Shown here one piece after another: positions 3,310-19,845 of a DNA stretch of 35,903 nt. Made by a program: the position numbers and the translations under genes. Position 1 is the first letter of the stretch. Each line of letters begins with the position of its first letter. The notes under the pieces are model-generated. The model was not told where the DNA came from. It worked only from the letters and a program-made list of their open reading frames with translations, and searched no databases. This DNA comes from an uncultured Methylophilaceae bacterium (GTDB lineage: Bacteria > Pseudomonadota > Gammaproteobacteria > Burkholderiales > Methylophilaceae): positions 1 to 35,903 of the forward strand of contig CAJBIA010000094.1 of assembly GCA_903953055.1 (NCBI GenBank), in the 5' to 3' direction.

Positions 3310-4737
3310 TTACCGAGGTAAGGTCGAAGCACCCATTAAGAATTCATCAACGGCACGTGCACATTGACGACCTTCGCGAATGGCCCAAACCACCAGTGAT
3401 TGACCACGACGAATATCACCAGCAGCGAATACCTTGGCTTTGGATGTGGCATAGCAACCTACGCCGTCGGTGGTCGCCTTTGCATTGCCGCGCGCATCTT
3501 TTTCAATCCCAAAGGCATCTAGTACTTTTTGGATGGGGCTCACAAAACCCATGGCCAACAACACTAAATCTGCCTGAATGATAAATTCTGAGCCTGGCAC
3601 TTCTACCATTTTGCCATCGACCCACTCAACTTTAGCGCCTTTGAGTCCGGTGACTTTTCCATTTTCACCAATTAACTCCTTGGTTGTAATGGACCAATCA
3701 CGGTCACACCCTTCTTCGTGTGAACTTGAAGTGCGCAGTTTTAGGGGCCAGTTTGGCCAAACCAAATTCTTATTTTCTTTCTCAGGTGGTTGAGGCATCA
3801 CTTCAAACTGTGTGATTGAAACTGCACCATGACGGTTAGAAGTTCCTACGCAGTCAGAGCCTGTGTCACCCCCACCAATCACAACAACATGCTTATTGGT
3901 GGCCATGATTTGGTTGGGTACAGTATCGCCAGCAACCACTTTATTTTGTGGGCGTAAGAAATCCATCGCGAAATGCACACCATCAAGCTCTCGGCCTGTA
4001 ACTGGTAAATCACGTGGATGTTCAGCGCCACCCGCTAAAATCACCGCATCGAAGTCTTTGCTTAAATCTTCCGCACTGACGTTTTCACCAACAATATGAT
4101 TCACGCGGAACTCAACCCCTTCAGCTTCCATTTGCGCAATACGGCGGTCGATATGACTCTTCTCAAACTTGAAATCAGGAATGCCATAACGCAGCAATCC
4201 GCCAACGCGTGTTTCTTTTTCAAATACCACGACATTATGACCAGCACGGGCCAATTGTTGAGCTGCCGCCATTCCTGCAGGACCTGAGCCTACAATGGCG
4301 ACTTTCTTGCCGGTTTTGTGTTGAGGGGGCTGAGGAACAACCCAATTATTTTCCCAAGCCTTATCAATGATGGCATGTTCAATTGATTTAATACCGACAG
4401 CATCATCATTGATATTGAGTGTACAGGCAGCTTCACAAGGCGCTGGACAAATACGGCCTGTAAACTCAGGGAAATTGTTTGTTGAATGCAATACATCAAT
4501 TGCTGCACGCCAATCTTGCTGATAAACCAAATCATTCCAATCAGGAATAATATTGTTAATTGGACAACCTGTAGTACAAAAAGGAATGCCGCAGTCCATG
4601 CAACGAGCGCCTTGGACTTTTGCTTGTTCATCCGTTAAATGGAGAACAAATTCTTTGTAATTTTTAAGACGATCTGTGACGGGAAGATTTGCTTCTGAAA
4701 GACGCTTAAATTCCATAAATCCAGTGACTTTACCCAT
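3310..4737 (-). CDS. gltD: Glutamate synthase [NADPH] small (beta) subunit
   Basis: GltD passes electrons from NADPH through FAD and iron-sulfur centres to the large subunit, which makes two glutamates from glutamine and 2-oxoglutarate. The 475 residues are typical. Cysteines 46, 49, 54 and 58 and a second group at 97, 101 and 105 form the N-terminal [4Fe-4S] sites. The FAD dinucleotide fold starts at [10 protein letters not shown] (146-155), and the NADPH fold carries [10 protein letters not shown] near 286. The start ATG lies 2 nt after the gltB stop. A strong AGGAGG ribosome-binding site is built into the last codons of gltB, so the two subunits are translationally linked. A terminator follows the gene. 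Confidence 0.97.
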
Positions 4738-4739
4738 GA

Positions 4740-7700
4740 TTATGCAGCCTCCTTCTTGGCAGCAGCGAGCTCTTTGAGCGCACGTTTGTACTCATTTGGC
4801 ATGACTTTTATAAACTTACTTCTAGCATTTTCCCAATCAGCACGAATGGCTTTGGCACGCTCACTGTCTGTGTAAGTGATGTGCTTATCGATTAATGCTA
4901 AGAGTGTTTTTTCATCAGCTTGGTTCAGATGATTGATGCTATCTGCTGTGAATCCGGAAGCTGGTTCTACTTTTTCAAGAGAAACCATCGCCATATTGCA
5001 ACGCTTGTTGAACATGCCGTCTTCATCATAGACGTAGGCCACACCACCAGACATCCCAGCAGCGAAGTTAAGCCCAGTTTGACCTAAAACAACTACTGTA
5101 CCGCCGGTCATGTATTCACAGCCGTGATTGCCGACCCCCTCCACTACAGCGCTTGCACCAGAGTTTCTTACACAGAAACGTTCACCTGCTACGCCACGGA
5201 AATAACTTTCGCCTGTCGTTGCACCATACATCACAGTATTACCAGCAATAATGTTTTCATGGGCTACCCCACGGAATGCAACAGGCGGTTTGATGACAAT
5301 TCGGCCACCACATAGGCCCTTGCCCACATAATCATTGCCTTCGCCAGTTAGCTCAATACTAATGCCATGGGCTAAGAATGCCGCAAAACTTTGCCCGGCA
5401 GTTCCTTTAAGCTTAATGCTGATGGTGTCATCTGGTAGGCCTTTATTTCCATAAAGGGTTGCCACTTGATTAGAAAGCATGGTCCCGCAAGTACGATTTG
5501 TATTCGTAATAGGTAAGTCAATCGTGACTTTTTGGCCTTTTTCTAATGCTGGTTTTGCAAGTGTGATTAATTGATTATCAAGCGCATTTTTCAAGCCGTG
5601 GTCCTGAACATCGTTATTAAACAATGAAACAGATTGGTCAACTTTTGGTTGATGGAAGACTTTGCTGAAATCAAGACCAGATAGTTTCCAATGATCGATC
5701 CCTTTTTGCATATCGAGCAAATCAGCACGACCAATTAAATCATTAAATTTACGGATGCCAATACTCGCCATTAATTCACGCACTTCTTCAGCAATAAAGA
5801 AAAAGTAATTTACAACGTGTTCAGGTTGACCAGTGAAGCGCTTACGTAATTCAGGATCTTGTGTTGCTACGCCGACAGGGCAGGTGTTGAGATGGCATTT
5901 GCGCATCATGATGCATCCCTCAACAACCAGAGGTGCAGTTGCAAAACCAAATTCATCTGCGCCTAACAATGCACCAATCAGCACATCGCGGCCGGTTTTC
6001 ATTTGGCCATCTACCTGCAAAATCACGCGACCACGCAATTGGTTGAGGACAAGTGTTTGTTGAGTTTCAGCTAAACCAAGTTCCCAAGGCGTGCCTGCAT
6101 GTTTAATTGATGAAATAGGCGATGCTCCTGTACCACCGTCATGTCCTGCGACAACGATGTGGTCAGATTTCGCTTTCGCTACGCCAGCAGCCACCGTACC
6201 AATACCAGTTTCAGAAACTAATTTGACTGAGATATCTGCTTTAGGATTGGCATTTTTCAAATCGTGAATCAATTGAGCCAAATCTTCAATTGAGTAAATA
6301 TCATGATGAGGCGGTGGTGAAATCAAGCCCACCCCCGGCACAGAGAAACGTAATTGTGCGATATATGGGCTGACTTTGTGTCCTGGCAGTTGACCGCCTT
6401 CACCAGGCTTCGCGCCTTGGGCCATTTTGATTTGGATCTGGTCTGCGTTAGCCAAGTATTCAGCAGTCACGCCAAAACGGCCTGAAGCGACTTGCTTAAT
6501 TTTTGAGCGCATTGAATCGCCAGCTTTAAGCGGAATGTCTCTTTCAATTAAAGTTTCGCCGATGACTTCAGCCATTGAACTAGCTTTAGCCACGGGAATA
6601 AAGCGTTTAGGATCTTCGCCGCCCTCGCCAGTATTGGATTTTCCGCCAATGCGGTTCATCGCAATCGCTAAGGTCGCATGCGCTTCTGTTGAGATAGAAC
6701 CTAAGGACATCGCCCCGGTTGCAAAGCGTTTAACGATTTCTTTTGCTGATTCCACTTCTTCCAAAGGCACCGGAGCGCCTGCAGATTTAATTTCAAATAA
6801 ACTGCGCAGAGTCATATGACGACGGCTTTGGTCATTAATGAGTTTTGCGTATTCTTTATAAGTGCTAGTTTGCCCGGTGCGTGTTGCATGTTGCAATTTC
6901 GCAATAGAGTCTGGTGTCCACATGTGCTCTTCACCACGAATGCGATAAGCATACTCTCCGCCAGCATCTAGGGCATTTGCTAATACAGGATCGTTTCCGA
7001 ATGCAGCAGAATGAAGATTAAAGCTTTCTTGTGAAACTTCATCTAGACCAATCCCTTCGATATGGGTAGCGGTGCCAGTGAAGTATTTCTCAATAAACGC
7101 AGTGTTGAGGCCAATGGCTTCAAAAATCTGTGCGCCACAGTAAGATTGGTAAGTTGAAATTCCCATCTTAGACATGACTTTATGTAAGCCCTTGCTAATG
7201 GCTTTTATGAAGTTCTTGTTGGCTTCGTATGTGTCGCCTTTCACCATATCAGCAATCGTTTGGAATGCGAGCCAAGGACAAACTGCCTCAGCGCCAAAAC
7301 CAGCAAGCAATGCAAAGTGATGCACTTCACGAGCTGACCCAGTATCAATGACTAAGCCAGCACTAGTCCGTAAGCCAGCGCGAACTAATGATTGATGTGT
7401 CGCTGAACAGGCAAGCAATGCTGGAATCGCCAAGCGGTCCTTGCTAATGCTACGGTCTGAAAGAATTAAAATATTAAAGCCATCTCGTACGGCCTTGCTT
7501 GCGGCAGAACAGAGGGCTTCAACAGCCGCGGCCATCCCTGCTTTTCCTTGTGAAGCTTGATACGTGATATCGAGCGTTAAAGCACGATATTGTTTTTTCG
7601 TGAGCGTGTCGATGGCCTTAAGTTGCTCTAATTCATCTAGCGTTAGCACCGGCTGACTTGCTTCTAGGCGGACTGGAGGATTGGTCTCATCAAGGCCTAA

Positions 7701-9365
7701 AAGGTTTGGTTTTGGTCCAATAAAGGTCACCAAAGACATCACTAACTCTTCACGGATAGGGTCGATTGGCGGATTGGTGACTTGTGCAAACAGCTGTTTG
7801 AAATAGTGATACAAAACTTTTGGTTTGTTTGAAAGCACAGATAAAGCGCTATCGTTACCCATCGAACCGGATGCTTCTTCGCCGTTTGCAATCATTGGCT
7901 GCATCACAAACTTGATATCCTCTTGGGAATATCCAAATGCTTGTTGAGAGTCTAACAAGCTCGCAGCCATGACTTGTTTAGCTTCTATTTTTGGTAAGTC
8001 AGCTAAGGTATAGCGTGATTGATCAATCCAAGCTTTATACGGTTTTGCTTGTGCCAAACTTTGCTTGATTTCAGCATCATCAATGATGCGACCTTCTTCT
8101 AGGTTAATCAGTAACATTTTGCCTGGCTGCAAACGCCATTTTTTGATGATTTTTTCTTCAGGGAATGTAAGCACGCCCATTTCTGATGCCATCATCACAT
8201 GATCATCATCAGTGATTAAATAACGCGCTGGACGAAGGCCATTGCGATCTAGTGTTGCACCGATCGTTGTGCCGTCAGTAAATGCAACAGCAGCAGGGCC
8301 ATCCCAAGGTTCCATTAAAGCCGCATGGTATTCATAGAAAGCGCGGCGATCTTCGCTCATTAATTTGCTAGCGCTTTCGTTGGACCAAGCTTCAGGAATT
8401 AACATCATCATGGCGTGAGGTAATGAATAACCACCAGCCACTAACAATTCAAGCGCATTATCAAAGGCTGCTGAATCAGATTGACCATCAATAATCAGCG
8501 GCCATAGTTTTTCTAAATCTTCACCCATTAATGCAGAGCGCATTGATTCATGACGAGCAGCCATCCAATTAATATTGCCTTGAACAGTGTTAATTTCACC
8601 GTTATGCGCAATCATTCGGAATGGATGCGCCAAATCCCATTTTGGGAAAGTATTAGTGGAGAAGCGTTGGTGGACTAATGCAAGTCCTGAAATCATCTCT
8701 TCATCTTGTAAGTCTTTGTAATAAATACCGACTTCGTTGGCGAGCAACATGCCCTTGTAGATAATGGTTTTTGATGACAAAGATGGAAAGTAAAATTGCG
8801 CAGAATCGTCTAATTTAAGTGCGCGCACTTCATGTTCAATTCGTTTGCGTATAACAAATAATTTACGCTCAAAAGCATTTTGGTCTACAACATTTTCACC
8901 GCGCCCAATAAATACTTGGCGCATCACCGGTTCAACGTCCTTGGCTGCTTGAGCAATATTGCTGTTGTCGCGAGGAACATCACGCCAACCTAGTAAAGTT
9001 TGAGCTTCTTCATGAATGATACGCGCGACAATCGATTCACAGGCTTCGCGGCCATTTTTAGTTTGTGGGAGAAACGCAGTACCACAAGCGTAGCTGCCAT
9101 GTGCAGGAAGGTTAATACCAAGCTTGGTTGCCTCTTTACGCATGAATGCGTCTGGCATTTGAATCAAAATTCCAGCGCCGTCACCCAATTTTGGGTCGTA
9201 TCCGGTTGCACCACGGTGGGTCAGGTTTGCAAGTATTTGCAAACCTTGTTGCACGATCAAATGGCTTTTATTGCCTTTAATGTGTGCAACAAAGCCAAGA
9301 CCACAGGCGTCACGCTCGTTAGATGGACTATATAAACCTTGCTGCTCTGGCATTCCGCTGCCCAT
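4740..9365 (-). CDS. gltB: Glutamate synthase [NADPH] large (alpha) subunit
   Basis: GltB is the catalytic subunit of bacterial glutamate synthase, 1541 residues. The propeptide is 20 residues; Cys21 in ERDACGLGF becomes the N-terminal nucleophile of the class II glutamine amidotransferase domain (about 21-430). A central domain follows, then the FMN-binding synthase domain (about 830-1200) with the [13 protein letters not shown] segment. Cysteines near 1147, 1153 and 1158 (CIMMRKC, CPVG) hold the [3Fe-4S] cluster. The C-terminal beta-helix has repeated G-x-x-G turns. The first ATG is chosen because GAGG lies 8 nt upstream; a second ATG four codons later is possible. A leader of about 190 nt with its own promoter and a terminator-like hairpin precedes it. 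gltD follows after 2 nt. Confidence 0.98.
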
Positions 9366-9557
9366 TTCCTATCCCTCGTCAGTACTGATAAAAACGGACA
9401 CCAAATCGAGGGTTTTGGTGTCCGCAAACCCCGTATTGCAAGCCTTTTTAGTCAAGGCTTAAGCACACGGGAAAATATAAATTAATCCGCATTGTTAAAA
9501 TGTCATGGTCATTTATTTAAACCTAAGCGACTCAATGACATATGTTTGCGGTGAAAC
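9366..9557 (-). ncRNA. Candidate structured leader RNA of gltB (riboswitch- or attenuator-like)
   Basis: What the sequence shows, reading the minus strand: a sigma-70-type promoter places the transcript start near 9557. An 8-nt segment CCGCAAAC (9551-9544), only a few nt from the 5' end, is perfectly complementary to GTTTGCGG (9429-9422). Between them lie an imperfect hairpin with arms TGTCAT (9540-9535) and ATGACA (9506-9501), and a 7-bp hairpin AAGCCTT/AAGGCTT (9460-9440). The 3' strand of the closing stem shares its final CGG with the 5' arm of an 11-bp hairpin plus five T (9424-9390), and GGGTTT (9431-9426) can also pair with AAACCC (9415-9410) in that hairpin's arm and loop. This nested, mutually exclusive pairing is how riboswitches and attenuators are built. 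The ligand or trigger is unknown, and I recognise no known RNA family. It could instead be a small RNA ending at the terminator. Confidence 0.5.
9390..9424 (-). terminator. Intrinsic terminator hairpin inside the gltB leader
   Basis: Perfect 11-bp stem (CGGACACCAAA / TTTGGTGTCCG) with an 8-nt loop, followed on the minus strand by TTTTT. It ends about 25 nt before the gltB start codon. It could end transcripts arriving from hemL, but it lies downstream of gltB's own promoter, so transcription of gltB must pass it. That placement suggests conditional termination. Confidence 0.75.
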
Positions 9558-9563
9558 CTTGTA

Positions 9564-9592
9564 ATTCTATATATATTAGTGCCTTGCTTCAA
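9564..9592 (-). promoter_or_regulatory. Sigma-70-type promoter for gltBD
   Basis: On the minus strand TTGAAG (9592-9587) and TAGAAT (9569-9564) are separated by exactly 17 nt, a good match to the housekeeping -35/-10 pattern. Predicted transcript start near 9557. It lies just after the end of hemL, so gltBD has its own promoter. Confidence 0.6.
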
Positions 9593-9625
9593 CCTACAAA
9601 TGCATGCAAGGCGTGGCTTTTGCGA

Positions 9626-10918
9626 TTATTTTCCAGTTTTCATCGCAACAAAAACTTTTTTGGCTGCTGCAATCGTTGCATCTATATCTGAATCACTGTG
9701 CGCTGCTGAGACAAAACCAGCTTCAAATGCTGATGGTGCAAGGTAAATACCCTCATCGAGCATGGCATGAAAGAAGTGATTAAACGCTTCTTTGTCTGAT
9801 TTCATGACTTCTTCAAAGCTTGTCGGTGCTTTTTCACTAAAGTAAATGCCAATCATCCCACCTACGGATTGCGCACTAAATGCGATTCCTTCATCTTTAG
9901 CAGCCTGCGTTAAACCATTTACTAAGCGCTCCGCGCTTTTTGCTAATCGCTCATGAAAGCCGGGTGCTTGAATTAGCGTTAAGGTTTTCATGCCTGCCGC
10001 AACCGCTACTGGATTGCCTGATAATGTACCTGCTTGATATACCGGTCCGACAGGCGCCAAGCATTGCATAATATCTGCCCGACCACCAAAAGCCCCAACT
10101 GGCAATCCACCGCCAATGATTTTGCCTAACGTGGTTAGATCCGGTTTGATGTTATAAAGCGCTTGCGCGCCACCTAATGCAACACGAAAGCCTGTCATTA
10201 CTTCATCAAATATTAATACTGATCCATATTTTGTACATTGTTCACGTAAAGACTCTAAAAAGCCTTTGCTTGGTTTAATTAAATTCATGTTGCCAGCTAC
10301 TGGTTCAACAATGACACAAGCAATTTCGTTGCCAATTTCTTTGAAGAGTGCTTCAACCCCAGAAATGTCGTTGTAATTAAGGGTAAGCGTATGGGCTGCC
10401 ACTTCAGGAGGCACGCCAGCAGAGCTAGGGGTGCCAAAAGTGAGCAATCCAGAACCTGCTTTAACCAATAGTGCATCAGCGTGGCCGTGGTAACACCCCT
10501 CAAATTTTACGATCTTGCTTCGCCCCGTAAAGCCGCGTGCTAAACGGATCGCACTCATGGTTGCTTCAGTACCAGAGCTCACTAAGCGCAACTGTTCCAT
10601 GCTTGGCACAATCTTGCTCACCATTTCAGCCATGTCTAGTTCGCGTGCTGTTGGTGCGCCAAATGAAAGGCTATGGGTAGCAACTTCTTGCACAGTTTTG
10701 ATGACTTCAGGATGGGCGTGCCCTAATATCATTGGACCCCAAGATCCAACGTAATCGATATATTCTTTGTCATCCTCATCCCATAGTTTTGAGCCTAATC
10801 CGCGTTTAAAAAACACTGGCGTTCCGCCTACGGATCGGAAAGCACGCACTGGAGAATTCACTCCGCCGGGAATAAGTTTTTGTGATTTTTCGAAAAGTTG
10901 TTGATTACGTGATGTCAT
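9626..10918 (-). CDS. hemL: Glutamate-1-semialdehyde 2,1-aminomutase
   Basis: HemL is a PLP enzyme that converts glutamate-1-semialdehyde to 5-aminolevulinate, the second step of the glutamate-tRNA (C5) route to haem. I start it at the ATG at 10918 (430 residues, family-typical), where the usual opening [20 protein letters not shown] begins; a longer frame reaching 11008 adds 30 unrelated residues overlapping thiE. The substrate-binding [16 protein letters not shown] is near 114-129, the PLP-stacking GCYHGH near 141, FDEV near 237-240, and the PLP lysine is K266 in [10 protein letters not shown]. It lies 19 nt after thiE on the same strand and is probably co-transcribed with thiD–thiE. hemE, later in the same pathway, lies in the same window. 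Confidence 0.96.
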
Positions 10919-12518: not shown

Positions 12519-12592
12519 TGGAGCGGGTGACGGGAATCGAACCCGCGTATCGAGCTTGGGAAGCTAGCGTTCTACCATTGAACTACACCCGC
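12519..12592 (-). tRNA. glyU: tRNA-Gly (anticodon CCC), CCA encoded
   Basis: Reading the minus strand, a 74-nt cloverleaf: acceptor GCGGGTG pairs with CACCCGC, D arm GTTC/GAAC, anticodon loop TTCCCAA (anticodon CCC), T arm with TTCGATT loop, discriminator T, then encoded CCA (12521-12519). It reads the GGG glycine codon and resembles Escherichia coli glyU. One oddity is a T–C mismatch at the second pair of the anticodon stem (CTAGC against GCTCG). It has a promoter immediately upstream. Confidence 0.95.
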
Positions 12593-15719: not shown

Positions 15720-17108
15720 TTATTCATCAATATCGAGTTCTTGAATTTTGCGTGTTAGGGTATTTCGACCCATACCAAGCTGTGTGGCCGCTTCAATTCT
15801 TCTGCCACCAGTATGCTGTAGGGCTTTTGTAATAAGAATTTTTTCAAATTCATTAGCGCGTGTTTCGAGAATATTTTGTTCGCCTCGATTTAATGCACCA
15901 GCAACCTCAGCCGCTAATGCATCTTGCCATGAAGCTTCATTGACTGATCTAGCAGAGTCTTCTTTCAGCTCGGGTGGTAAGTCTGCCACGTCAATATTCT
16001 GGCCTGGCGCCATGACGGTTAACCAATGGCATACATTTTCAAGTTGGCGAACGTTGCCGCTCCAATTTAAGCTTGATAAGTATTTCAATGCAGCCACAGT
16101 TGGTTGTTTTGGATCTACGTTGAGCTCATTGGCGCTGTGTTGTAAAAAATGCTTCACTAACAAAGGGATGTCTTCAGAGCGTTCTCTTAGTGCTGGTAGG
16201 CGAAGACGAATCACATTTAAACGATGGAATAAATCTTCACGAAATAGACCCGCTTTGACTCTATCTTCAAGGTCTTGATGGGTAGCCGCAATAATCCGGA
16301 CATTGACTTTAACGGGCTGGTGGCCGCCTACACGATAAAACTGCCCATCGGAAAGTACGCGTAATAGGCGTGTTTGTAGTTCAGCAGGCATGTCGCCAAT
16401 TTCATCTAAAAATAAGGTACCGCCGTCAGCTTGTTCAAAACGACCTCGTCTGGCGGCCTGAGCCCCAGTAAACGCACCACGCTCATGGCCAAATAATTCT
16501 GATTCCAATAAATCTTTCGGAATGGCGGCAGTATTAATTGCGATAAATGGCTTATCCGCACGTGGGCTATGGCGATGTAATGCGCTTGCGACTAGCTCCT
16601 TACCGGTACCAGATTCGCCATTAATTAAGACAGTCGCGTGTGAGCGACTTAATCGGCCTATGGCCCGAAAAACTTCTTGCATAGAGGCTGCTTGGCCAAT
16701 AATTTCAGGGGTTTCTTCAACAATTGAAGTATCACTGGTTTTGTATTGACTTTCTTCTACCGCGCGGCGAATGACTTCAATTGCCTGGTCAACGTCAAAG
16801 GGCTTTGCTAGATATTCAAAAGCGCCACCTTGAAATGCCGCAACGGCACTTTCTAGATCAGAATAAGCGGTCATGATGATCACGGGAACATCTGGCAAGC
16901 GTTGTTTGATGACCTGTAAAAAGTCTAAGCCTGAGCCATTCGGCATCCGAATATCACTGACGATCACTTGTGGTGTTTCATCTTCAAGGGCGTTTAATGC
17001 TTCTGGTGTGGATGAGAATGTTTTAAATTCCATTTCTGTCCGAGCCAATGCTTTTTCAAATACCCAGCGTATTGATTTGTCGTCGTCGATAATCCAAATT
17101 GGTTTCAT
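15720..17108 (-). CDS. ntrC: Nitrogen regulation response regulator NtrC (GlnG)
   Basis: NtrC is a sigma-54-dependent activator that, when phosphorylated by NtrB under nitrogen shortage, drives glnA and other nitrogen genes. The 462 residues are in the order receiver, AAA+ and helix-turn-helix. The receiver has the acidic pocket IIDDD, phospho-acceptor D52 in VSDIRMP and K102 in AKPF. The AAA+ domain has Walker A GESGTGKE (164-171), the sigma-54 contact loop GAFTGA (211-216), and Walker B LFLDE (232-236). The C-terminal Fis-type DNA-binding domain covers about 415-460 (AATQLGMGRNTLTRKI). It lies 35 nt after ntrB. A sigma-54 promoter before ntrB and an NtrC-like site before glnA fit autoregulation and control of its neighbours. 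Confidence 0.97.
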   Translation of the reverse strand: MKPIWIIDDDKSIRWVFEKALARTEMEFKTFSSTPEALNALEDETPQVIVSDIRMPNGSGLDFLQVIKQRLPDVPVIIMTAYSDLESAVAAFQGGAFEYLAKPFDVDQAIEVIRRAVEESQYKTSDTSIVEETPEIIGQAASMQEVFRAIGRLSRSHATVLINGESGTGKELVASALHRHSPRADKPFIAINTAAIPKDLLESELFGHERGAFTGAQAARRGRFEQADGGTLFLDEIGDMPAELQTRLLRVLSDGQFYRVGGHQPVKVNVRIIAATHQDLEDRVKAGLFREDLFHRLNVIRLRLPALRERSEDIPLLVKHFLQHSANELNVDPKQPTVAALKYLSSLNWSGNVRQLENVCHWLTVMAPGQNIDVADLPPELKEDSARSVNEASWQDALAAEVAGALNRGEQNILETRANEFEKILITKALQHTGGRRIEAATQLGMGRNTLTRKIQELDIDE

Positions 17109-17143
17109 GGGGGCACCTATTAATTAATATCTATTCTTAATGA

Positions 17144-18259
17144 CTATTGTTTTACTTCAAAACCTTTGATTACAGAGGCTTCAATTGGAAGCAAAATCGT
17201 AAAACAGGTTTGACCTGGTTCGCTATCACATTCAATCATTCCGTGGTGCTGTGTAATAAAGGTTTGGGCAAGCGTTAATCCTAATCCTGAACCGCCTTCT
17301 CGCCCCGAAACTAGAGGGAAGAAAATGCGTTCACGGATATTGGCTGGGATGCCTGGACCGTTATCGATAATTTGCAATTTAATTGCCACTCGATAGCGTT
17401 TTTTAGCGAGCGTTACTTGTCGCTCAGCTCTGGTTCTTAAAATAATTTGGCAGTCTGTTTGGCCAACGGATTGCATGGCTTGCGCAGCGTTGCGTGCAAT
17501 ATTAAGCACGGCTTGGATGAGCTTTTCTCTGTCGCCGATGATCTCTGGAAGGCTGGTGTCATAATCGCGGCGCACCGTAATTTTGGGTGAATTTTTTGAA
17601 AAACCAGAAGGAGATTCAGCCAATAATAAACTTCTAACACGCTCTAGCACTTCATGAATATTGGTTGGTTCATATTTTGGTACGCGGTGTGGAACTAACA
17701 ATCTATCCATTAATAGCTGAAGTCGATCAGCCTCTTTAATAATGACTTGTGTATATTCCCTCAAACTGGCTTGCGGAAGTTCATGTTCAAGCAATTGCGC
17801 CGCGCCACGTAAACCACCAAGTGGATTACGAATTTCATGCGCTAAATTTCTTAACAATTCAGCGTTGGCTTGTTGTTGAACTAGCATCCGCTCTTCACGT
17901 GCTATCCGCAATTGCTGATCCATTTGCTGAAATTCAAGCATGAGGCAAATATCTTGTTGATCTACAGGCGTCACCGTGCAGGTGACTGCCAAAGAATTTT
18001 GCCTCGTCGCGGTGATTACAAACTCATGTTCACGGAATGGACTATTTGTACTAATCGCATTTTCAACAGCAGAAAGAAGAAGTTCGCAGCCAGGAAATAC
18101 CTGCGAAATTGTTGATCCATTAATTTTTTTAGCGCTAAATGCAAACAATATTTCTGCGCCAGGATTGGCATAGACCACATGGCGTGTTTTGTTGAGCAAA
18201 ATAACTGCTGTTGCAAGATGTTCAAGTCCCGCAAATGATGAAGGTATTTGTTGTTCCAT
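17144..18259 (-). CDS. ntrB: Nitrogen regulation sensor histidine kinase NtrB (GlnL)
   Basis: NtrB is the cytoplasmic kinase and phosphatase of NtrC, controlled by the PII protein. It has 371 residues and no membrane segment. A PAS domain covers about 8-110 (VVYANPGAEILF). The dimerisation/phosphotransfer domain has H141 in NLAHEIRNPLGGLRGAAQLL, the canonical NtrB H-box. The ATP-binding domain shows an N-box (LNIARNAAQAM), DNGPGIP and GSGLGL. The ATG at 18259 gives a PAS alignment of normal length. No Shine-Dalgarno sequence precedes it. A perfect sigma-54 promoter predicts transcription starting at or within a couple of bases of this ATG. ntrC follows after 35 nt. Confidence 0.97.
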   Translation of the reverse strand: MEQQIPSSFAGLEHLATAVILLNKTRHVVYANPGAEILFAFSAKKINGSTISQVFPGCELLLSAVENAISTNSPFREHEFVITATRQNSLAVTCTVTPVDQQDICLMLEFQQMDQQLRIAREERMLVQQQANAELLRNLAHEIRNPLGGLRGAAQLLEHELPQASLREYTQVIIKEADRLQLLMDRLLVPHRVPKYEPTNIHEVLERVRSLLLAESPSGFSKNSPKITVRRDYDTSLPEIIGDREKLIQAVLNIARNAAQAMQSVGQTDCQIILRTRAERQVTLAKKRYRVAIKLQIIDNGPGIPANIRERIFFPLVSGREGGSGLGLTLAQTFITQHHGMIECDSEPGQTCFTILLPIEASVIKGFEVKQ

Positions 18260-18269
18260 ATTTAACTAT

Positions 18270-18286
18270 AAGCAACCTGCGTGCCA
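18270..18286 (-). promoter_or_regulatory. Sigma-54 (-24/-12) promoter of ntrBC
   Basis: On the minus strand TGGCACGCAGGTTGCTT matches the consensus YTGGCACG-N4-TTGCW at every conserved position, with GG and GC exactly 11 nt apart and a C before the TGG. The -12 C is at 18272, so +1 is expected near 18260, next to the ntrB ATG at 18259. Confidence 0.75.
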
Positions 18287-18384
18287 GAATGAAATGGCAA
18301 TACCCCTATTGTGCGCTTAAATTCCTGCTGAGGATGCTATTAATATCGCTATATTAGTAAATTGCTAATGAGTTTGCTAGGCAT

Positions 18385-18414
18385 AAAAAAAGGCGGGTTA
18401 CCCCGCCTTTTTTT
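18385..18414. terminator. Terminator after glnA
   Basis: GGCGGG / CCCGCC stem with a 4-nt loop flanked by seven A and seven T. It lies about 20 nt past the glnA stop and isolates glnA from ntrBC, so the three genes do not form one simple operon. The sequence can act in both directions. Confidence 0.9.
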
Positions 18415-18435
18415 AGGTGCTGATTTAAAAACGCA

Positions 18436-19845
18436 TTAGCAACTGTAGTACATACTAAACTCAATAGGATGAGGTGTCATACGTACGTTATTAACTTCAC
18501 CCATTTTCAAGTCGATATATGAATCAATCCAGTCATCGCTGAATACACCGCCACGAGTTAAGAACTCACGGTCTTTATCGAGGTATTCAAGCGCTTGCTC
18601 TAATGAAGAGCAGACTGTTGGGATCAAAGCATCTTCCTCTGGTGGAAGATGGTACAAGTCTTTAGTTGCAGCTTCACCTGGGTGAATCTTGTTTTGAACG
18701 CCATCTAAACCAGCCATCATTAATGCACTAAATGCCAAATATGGGTTAGCTGTTGGATCTGGGAAACGTGCTTCAACACGACGTGCATTGTCTGAGTGCA
18801 CAAATGGGATACGGATTGAAGCTGAGCGGTTTTTAGCTGAATAGGCTAATTTCACAGGCGCTTCAAAGCCAGGTACTAAACGTTTGTATGAGTTAGTACT
18901 TGGGTTAGTAATCGCATTCAATGCGCGAGCGTGTTTGATAATGCCGCCAATGTAGTAAAGCGCAAAATCACTCAAGCCTGCATAGCCGTTACCAGCGAAT
19001 AAGTTTTTGCCATCTTTCCAGATGGATTGGTGAACGTGCATACCTGAACCATTATCACCCGCATATGGTTTTGGCATGAAAGTCGCTGTTTTTCCATAAG
19101 CGTGGGCTGTATTTAGTACCACATATTTCAATACTTGAGTCCAGTCAGCACGTTGAACTAATGTGCTGAATTTCGTACCGATTTCACATTGACCAGCACC
19201 AGCCACTTCGTGGTGATGCACTTCTACTGGAATGCCTAACTCTTCAAGCGCAATACACATTGCAGAACGTACGTCTTGTAAAGAATCAACAGGAGGCACT
19301 GGGAAGTAGCCACCTTTAACCGTTGGACGGTGACCAATGTTTCCGCCTTCGAATTTATCATTTGAAGACCATGGCGCTTCTTCAGAGTTGATTCGAACTG
19401 AGCTACCGCTCATGCTCACGTCCCATTGGACTGAGTCAAAAATGAAGAATTCTGGTTCTGGACCAAAGTAAGCGGTATCGCCGATACCGCTTGATTTTAA
19501 GTAAGCTTCAGCGCGTTTTGCCAAACTACGTGGGCAGCGGTCATAGCCTTTGCCGTCGGTAGGATCAACAACGTCACAGGTTAAAATCAATGTTGGCTCG
19601 TCCATAAATGGATCAATGTTTGCAGTATCTGGGTCAGGCATCAATTGCATGTCAGAGGCTTGAATGCCTTTCCAGCCAGCAATTGAAGAACCGTCAAATG
19701 CATGGCCTTCAGTAAATTTTTCTTCATTAAATGCTGAAACAGGCACAGTAACATGCTGTTCTTTACCACGAGTGTCTGTGAACCGGAAATCAACAAACTT
19801 GATATCATTGTCCTTGACTAATTTCATTACGTCGGCGATTGCCAT
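18436..19845 (-). CDS. glnA: Glutamine synthetase, type I
   Basis: GlnA makes glutamine from glutamate, ammonia and ATP as a dodecamer in the cytosol. The 469 residues match the proteobacterial GSI-beta form. Seen in order are the beta-grasp N-terminus with the Asp50 region ([12 protein letters not shown]51), [11 protein letters not shown] with metal-binding glutamates (130-132), [14 protein letters not shown] (210-223), [10 protein letters not shown] (265-274), RIPF, and the adenylylation loop [10 protein letters not shown] with Tyr398 as the expected AMP acceptor. An AGGAG ribosome-binding site lies 6 nt before the ATG. A sigma-54 promoter and an NtrC-type site upstream, with ntrBC just beyond its terminator, indicate NtrC control and post-translational control by adenylylation. 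Confidence 0.98.

Follow-up and report, generated by a model that had tools for sequence, protein, structure and literature searches.

Glutamate synthase genes and the RNA ahead of them

The stretch of DNA analysed here (the window; 35,903 nt from an uncultured Methylophilaceae bacterium) carries the genes of glutamate synthase behind an RNA leader, and this locus raises a question: is the leader a control device, and if so, which of its parts exerts the control? Both genes lie on the minus strand, gltB (large subunit) at 4740–9353 and gltD (small subunit) at 3310–4737. The gltB reading frame is also open from 9365, and the initial annotation, which correctly recognized a leader before gltB, had placed the start codon there. 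The start is most likely the ATG at 9353–9351 instead, because the upstream ATG is absent in two relatives (G180 and G039) while the downstream ATG is kept; this would place the 3′ end of the leader at 9354. A sigma70-like promoter pattern, TTGAAG-17-TAGAAT, lies on the minus strand at 9592–9564, just as annotated, and with a putative transcript start near 9557 the leader RNA would span 9354–9557 of the same strand. A single site of this pattern is not above chance (shuffle mean 2.0), but the pattern is kept in 9/9 leaders of the window genus and in G039, and was sought and not found in G180. Directly 3′ of the −10 element we noted the motif GGTTYCRC (9551–9558). Of 79 named loci, 50 have it in the 300 nt ahead of gltB, and it is also seen in many loci that lack the conserved core described below.

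For comparison we used gltB upstream regions from 80 named loci, from loci recovered in family and order searches, and from 60 places taken by coordinate; the family is represented by a sample, with 20 places besides the named and searched loci. Nine members of the window genus, including the window itself, carry the whole leader, and the search gave no gltB match in the tenth genome of the genus (G099).

A hairpin loop and its complement near the start codon

The comparison across genera revealed a common core: a hairpin with loop ACCCUCG, followed downstream by CGAGGG. In the window, the core hairpin has 12 pairs and the loop ACCCUCGA (9394–9425, minus strand); the loop strand CCCUCG is at 9407–9412 and its complement CGAGGG at 9373–9378, 19 nt before the start codon, both on the minus strand. 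Across 153 distinct gltB upstream regions, the loop and CGAGGG occur together in 26, the loop occurs by itself in one (L155), CGAGGG by itself in none, and neither in 126. CGAGGG stands 18–20 nt upstream of an in-frame start in all 25 members (three of these starts are GTG or TTG), whereas its spacing from the loop varies between 23 and 36 nt across members and exceeds 100 nt in L056. Because the distance to the start codon is fixed and that to the loop is variable, CGAGGG seems to be positioned relative to the start codon.

To evaluate the pairing quantitatively, we used the part of alignment A4 that consists of ten members outside the window genus; L049, L055 and L190 were left out of A4 as misaligned or poor in the stem (by eye the core stem is poor in L055 and L190), and L056, L057 and L114 for their long linker. 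In these ten members the core stem shows two-sided changes in 4 of 7 pairs (1/500 shuffles), and 93.8% of the cells in stem and loop are paired (0/500 shuffles), compared with 34–57% in slid versions; within the window genus the stem shows one compensatory change (L004). For the loop pairing, five of the six pairs are invariant in the ten members and one changes from C-G to U-G, and a two-sided change was found in none of the six, either in the window genus or in the ten others. What supports the loop pairing is thus that both strands are conserved together, not that they covary, so that the loop and CGAGGG could also be conserved for some other reason. We infer that the two strands form an H-type pseudoknot. 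Judged by sequence comparison, the most conserved part of the leader is this core and not the features stressed in the initial annotation, which had missed that the loop is complementary to CGAGGG close to the start of gltB, the element that other genera share.

The core was also recovered independently of the window genus. A model built from the ten members outside that genus (R1) matches the window leader at 9371–9422 on the minus strand (23.6 bits, E 1.9e-4), which is its best match in 399 genomes of the order. Under strict filters, with 15 candidates scored per genome, R1 gave E ≤0.1 in 85 of these genomes; of 30 such matches that were retrieved, two lie at gltB, that of the window and a degenerate match in G179, and on this count we rejected the idea that the core is widespread in the order. 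In all 187 genomes of the family, R1 gave 20 matches at E ≤0.01, of which 19 lie just upstream of gltB, in nine genera (6 from training genomes and 13 from others), and the twentieth, in G107, lies elsewhere. The 80 genomes of a second family gave five matches at E 0.001, all five already known. A second match in G579 was discarded as a further copy on account of its position inside an open reading frame. On a GltB tree of 105 rows, 23 of them with the core, the distribution requires at least 6 changes (2 forced by well-supported branches), as against 21.1 with shuffled labels. A history of one gain and several losses would fit this pattern, which does not prove it. The loop and CGAGGG vary together in presence on the tree, with two well-supported independent pairs in an underpowered comparison (p 0.5).

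Terminator-like hairpin and 5′ domain in the window genus

Within the window genus, the core is embedded in a larger structure. The initial annotation had proposed a structured leader RNA, and the fold bears this out: it is better than 200 of 200 shuffles in the window (z −4.60; −4.86 with the terminator removed), z ranges from −2.43 to −5.41 over the nine genus leaders, and their alignment shows two-sided changes in five pairs. In the nine species, 91.7% of the cells are paired in the structure made up of stems P1′, P2 and P3, the terminator hairpin and the pseudoknot, compared with 35–48% when it is slid. At the sequence level, columns 142–222 of the leader are 94% invariant in the nine species, whereas the figure for gltB third codon positions is 23%; the leader has an invariant run of up to 28, as against 17 in 600 coding bases of gltB. 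The leaders of 15 core members outside the genus (L011 included) are not unusually stable, with z from +2.07 to −2.65.

The 5′ hairpin (9479–9559, minus strand) comprises P0 (AGGUU/AAUUU), which is seen in 8 of 9 free folds, P1′ (CCGC at 9551–9548 with GCGG at 9490–9487) and P2 (9541–9535 with 9506–9500). In the nine species, 88.9% of cells are paired in P1′ and 84.1% in P2; P1′ shows one two-sided change (L006) and one broken pair (L008), its fifth pair is unpaired in 4/9, and the last pair of P2 fails in 6/9. It is followed by hairpin P3 (CCCGU...ACGGG; 9429–9472, minus strand), whose base is invariant and whose apical pairs covary, with two mostly unpaired pairs in its middle that fail in 8/9 and 5/9; by eye, 13 of the 15 other core members have a hairpin in this position. 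The RNAalifold consensus, calculated without pseudoknots, likewise contains P2, P3 and the terminator. It differs in pairing the U-tract with GAUAGGAAA, taking in the last base of CGAGGG, and in pairing the 5′ CCGC, which has three possible GCGG partners, with the CAGCGG before the start codon instead of its P1′ partner. When the leaders are compared by eye, the P1′–P2 part appears to have been inserted, in the window genus, into a small 5′ hairpin. The linker between the U-tract and CGAGGG holds a palindrome, TCAGTACTGA (9379–9388), kept in 8/9 genus members and shortened in L010.

The core hairpin doubles as the stem of a putative terminator. The hairpin with five T of the initial annotation is found as a 12-pair terminator-like hairpin (9425–9394) followed by the U-tract UUUUU (9390–9394, minus strand), and it is present between promoter and gene in all nine genus leaders. 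The region holds 4 terminator-like sites where 1.5 are expected, and the scan is unspecific in the window genus, flagging the other strand in 7/9 and a shuffle in 1/9. A T5 run behind the core stem occurs in 10 of 25 members, namely in G180 and all nine of the window genus; in L045 a T4 run, flagged as a weak terminator, lies further on. Both G180 and G039 have the terminator-like hairpin and lack the 5′ domain. In a sample of 62 regions from the order, terminator-like sites upstream of gltB number 14/62, compared with 4/62 on the other strand and 3/62 in shuffled sequence. Outside Methylophilaceae, we also noted hairpins followed directly by at least 6 T upstream of gltB in L077 (not part of the 62-region sample), L116, L125, L146, L159, L164, L166, L169 and L173; these nine lack the ACCCUCG loop and, by eye, come soon after a promoter-like site.

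Does the terminator compete with other folds? The initial annotation had described a switch in which the start of the leader, CCGCAAAC (9551–9544), pairs with its perfect complement 114 nt further on, GTTTGCGG (9429–9422, minus strand), closing a domain, and a GGGTTT/AAACCC pairing acts as antiterminator. The perfect complement is there in the window, and its eight perfect pairs are found in the window only: in the nine species, six pairs of the closing stem are kept in 9/9, three of them with one G-U change (equalled by 447 of 500 shuffles), position 14 is unpaired in 7/9, the eighth pair is missing everywhere but in the window, and we detected no covariation signal in this stem. Pairing is nearly equal in the closing stem (89.1% of cells) and in the competing P1′ (88.9%), so that the choice between them is made not by the alignment but by energies. 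When the whole terminator is present, the fold with the closing stem is worse by 3.8–12.6 kcal/mol in 9/9 species. The antiterminator pairing exists in the sequence and is not the favoured fold, being 12.2–17.8 kcal/mol worse (GGGUU/AACCC) with a complete terminator. Before the 3′ arm of the terminator is made, the closing stem dominates in 4/9 species: for RNA extending up to the loop, its probability is >0.7 in four and <0.5 in five. Dominance at this early stage in four species makes a transient antiterminator possible, not a favoured fold in all species. Taken together, the interpretation in the initial annotation is partly supported, in its structured leader with a terminator-like hairpin, and weakened in its closing stem; the observation from which it started is confirmed.

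Possible modes of action

How, then, could such a leader act? The explanation that we favour, and consider somewhat probable, is a cis-acting gltBD leader in which the core pseudoknot gates gltB translation and partial termination has been added in the window genus. The loop ACCCUCG would pair with CGAGGG at the upstream border of the site where the ribosome lands, and this pairing would most likely gate the initiation of gltB translation; in the window genus, the U-tract behind the same hairpin would probably end some transcripts before gltB, and the 5′ hairpin would have been added by insertion. The pairing would have to form in the cell and repress, and termination would be partial and regulated. 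The reading draws on a complementarity that is conserved, on the constant spacing from the start codon, on the covariation of the stem, on the association with gltB and on the U-tract. Since the site matched by the loop lies shortly ahead of the start codon, the leader probably controls the amount of glutamate synthase made.

The trigger may be a metabolite, a protein or the ribosome itself. A metabolite riboswitch and an RNA-binding protein are both possible triggers of the same leader device, so that their odds overlap with those of the favoured explanation. Glutamine, glutamate or 2-oxoglutarate might stabilize one of the folds open to the 5′ domain or the core and thereby shift the terminator or the pseudoknot; the position before glutamate synthase, the 5′ domain structured in nine species, the three alternative GCGG partners of the 5′ CCGC, the early dominance of the closing stem in four species and the proposal (PMC8632094) that RNA before gltD senses glutamine elsewhere all speak for such a riboswitch. 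We nevertheless consider it unlikely: the 5′ domain is found only in the window genus while G180 and G039 keep the core without it, the closing-stem fold loses in all nine species once the terminator is complete, no Rfam family reached threshold, and the genus has PII (10/10), sigma54 (8/10) and NtrC over the cut-off (8/10). Given these regulators and the glnA, ntrB and ntrC genes in the window (15720–19845, minus strand), the RNA would supplement a normal nitrogen circuit. More doubtful still is the idea that these RNAs of Methylophilaceae and Hydrogenophilales relatives form a new class of riboswitch, sensing a nitrogen metabolite through the ACCCUCG/CGAGGG pseudoknot before gltB, which acted on translation ancestrally and was turned into a transcription terminator with an inserted 5′ domain in the window genus; were this true, a single RNA core would have passed from control of translation to control of transcription. 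A serious alternative trigger is an RNA-binding protein, CsrA for example, though by itself we give it the same low probability as a metabolite riboswitch. Its candidate site would be CGAGGGAU(A/G)G, masked by the loop; CGAGGGAUGG, which we take to resemble the CsrA consensus, and a loop complement kept by sequence rather than covariation count in its favour, and L059, where no GGA adjoins CGAGGG, counts against it. In Vibrio alginolyticus, CsrA binds gltB mRNA, and both gltB and gltD are up in a csrA mutant (PMC12298160).

Two further explanations were considered. The leader might be constitutive, a plain terminator or RNA-stabilizing hairpin that fixes the expression level with no regulation, as the stability of the terminator fold in 9/9 genus species and the terminator-like hairpins upstream of gltB in other Burkholderiales (14/62) would suggest; however, this leaves unexplained why a complement of the loop keeps its distance from the start codon and why the linker behind the U-tract is conserved, and we judge it less likely than either trigger or the new class. 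Attenuation coupled to translation of a short leader ORF is very improbable. The window leader does contain a 10-codon ATG ORF (MSLSRLGLNK), with similar starts in L003 and L004, but this ORF has no Shine-Dalgarno sequence, its peptide is not kept and it is absent in L006, while L010 does not retain a second short ORF, VSVFISTDEG, which spans the invariant linker; with a conserved peptide absent across the genus leaders, a leader peptide is largely refuted.

It is instructive to compare the leader with RNA classes that have been described. The suspicion in the initial annotation that it lies outside known classes agrees with our covariance-model search of Rfam 15 (4227 families): at the gathering score no family was found in the leader, and the sole match in the window was a tRNA (12522–12592). 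Lax searches gave four chance-level matches in 9340–9640 (E 3.4–8.7) and, in 14 related loci, 8 matches (E 0.78–3.5), none of them in a leader. Among the matches listed in a literature search, none describes a gltB leader RNA of Betaproteobacteria. H-type pseudoknots of the SAM-II, preQ1-II and rpsO type lie at ribosome binding sites. Like the gltB leader, they have a hairpin loop whose sequence is the complement of a stretch close to the start codon, but the 3′ strand at gltB ends 18–20 nt before the start, upstream of the usual Shine-Dalgarno position, and the leader matched no Rfam family. Intrinsic-terminator attenuators likewise place a terminator-like hairpin and U-tract between promoter and gene; here, in contrast, the T5 run is confined to the window genus and G180, no antiterminator is favoured in 9/9 species, and there is no conserved leader peptide. 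Glutamine riboswitches contain a pseudoknot, a likeness to the gltB leader. They also precede nitrogen-metabolism genes including glutamate synthase (the glnA and Downstream-peptide motifs; PMC2864571), but the window and the 14 related loci gave no match to their models. The nearest published system found is the gltD motif (SRC-18-1), which PMC8632094 describes as a riboswitch candidate before gltD in Selenomonadales and Veillonellales, with glutamine suggested as ligand. As here, a structured leader precedes a glutamate synthase gene and is followed by a hairpin that possibly hides the ribosome site; what sets it apart, with descriptions and not consensus structures compared, is another phylum and another first gene. 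Sequenced representatives of the motif belong to those two orders and always stand directly before gltD. Membership was rejected, since the leader here comes before gltB, and among named relatives the nearest belong to Methylophilaceae.

In Methylophilaceae and some of their relatives, a central operon of nitrogen assimilation is preceded by a conserved RNA leader. Should the pseudoknot function as we infer, it would add control of glutamate synthase at the RNA level on top of the PII/NtrBC circuit. The members form a natural series for leader evolution: core alone, core with U-tract, and core with U-tract and inserted hairpin. In E. coli, gltBDF is reportedly controlled by Lrp, IHF, Crp and ArgR. 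In Methylotenera and nearby loci (L063, L070, L091, L094 and L107), we noted that the promoter-like region of gltB lies within an inverted repeat, for example CATTTAGCGG ... CCGCTAAATG, which is possibly an operator.
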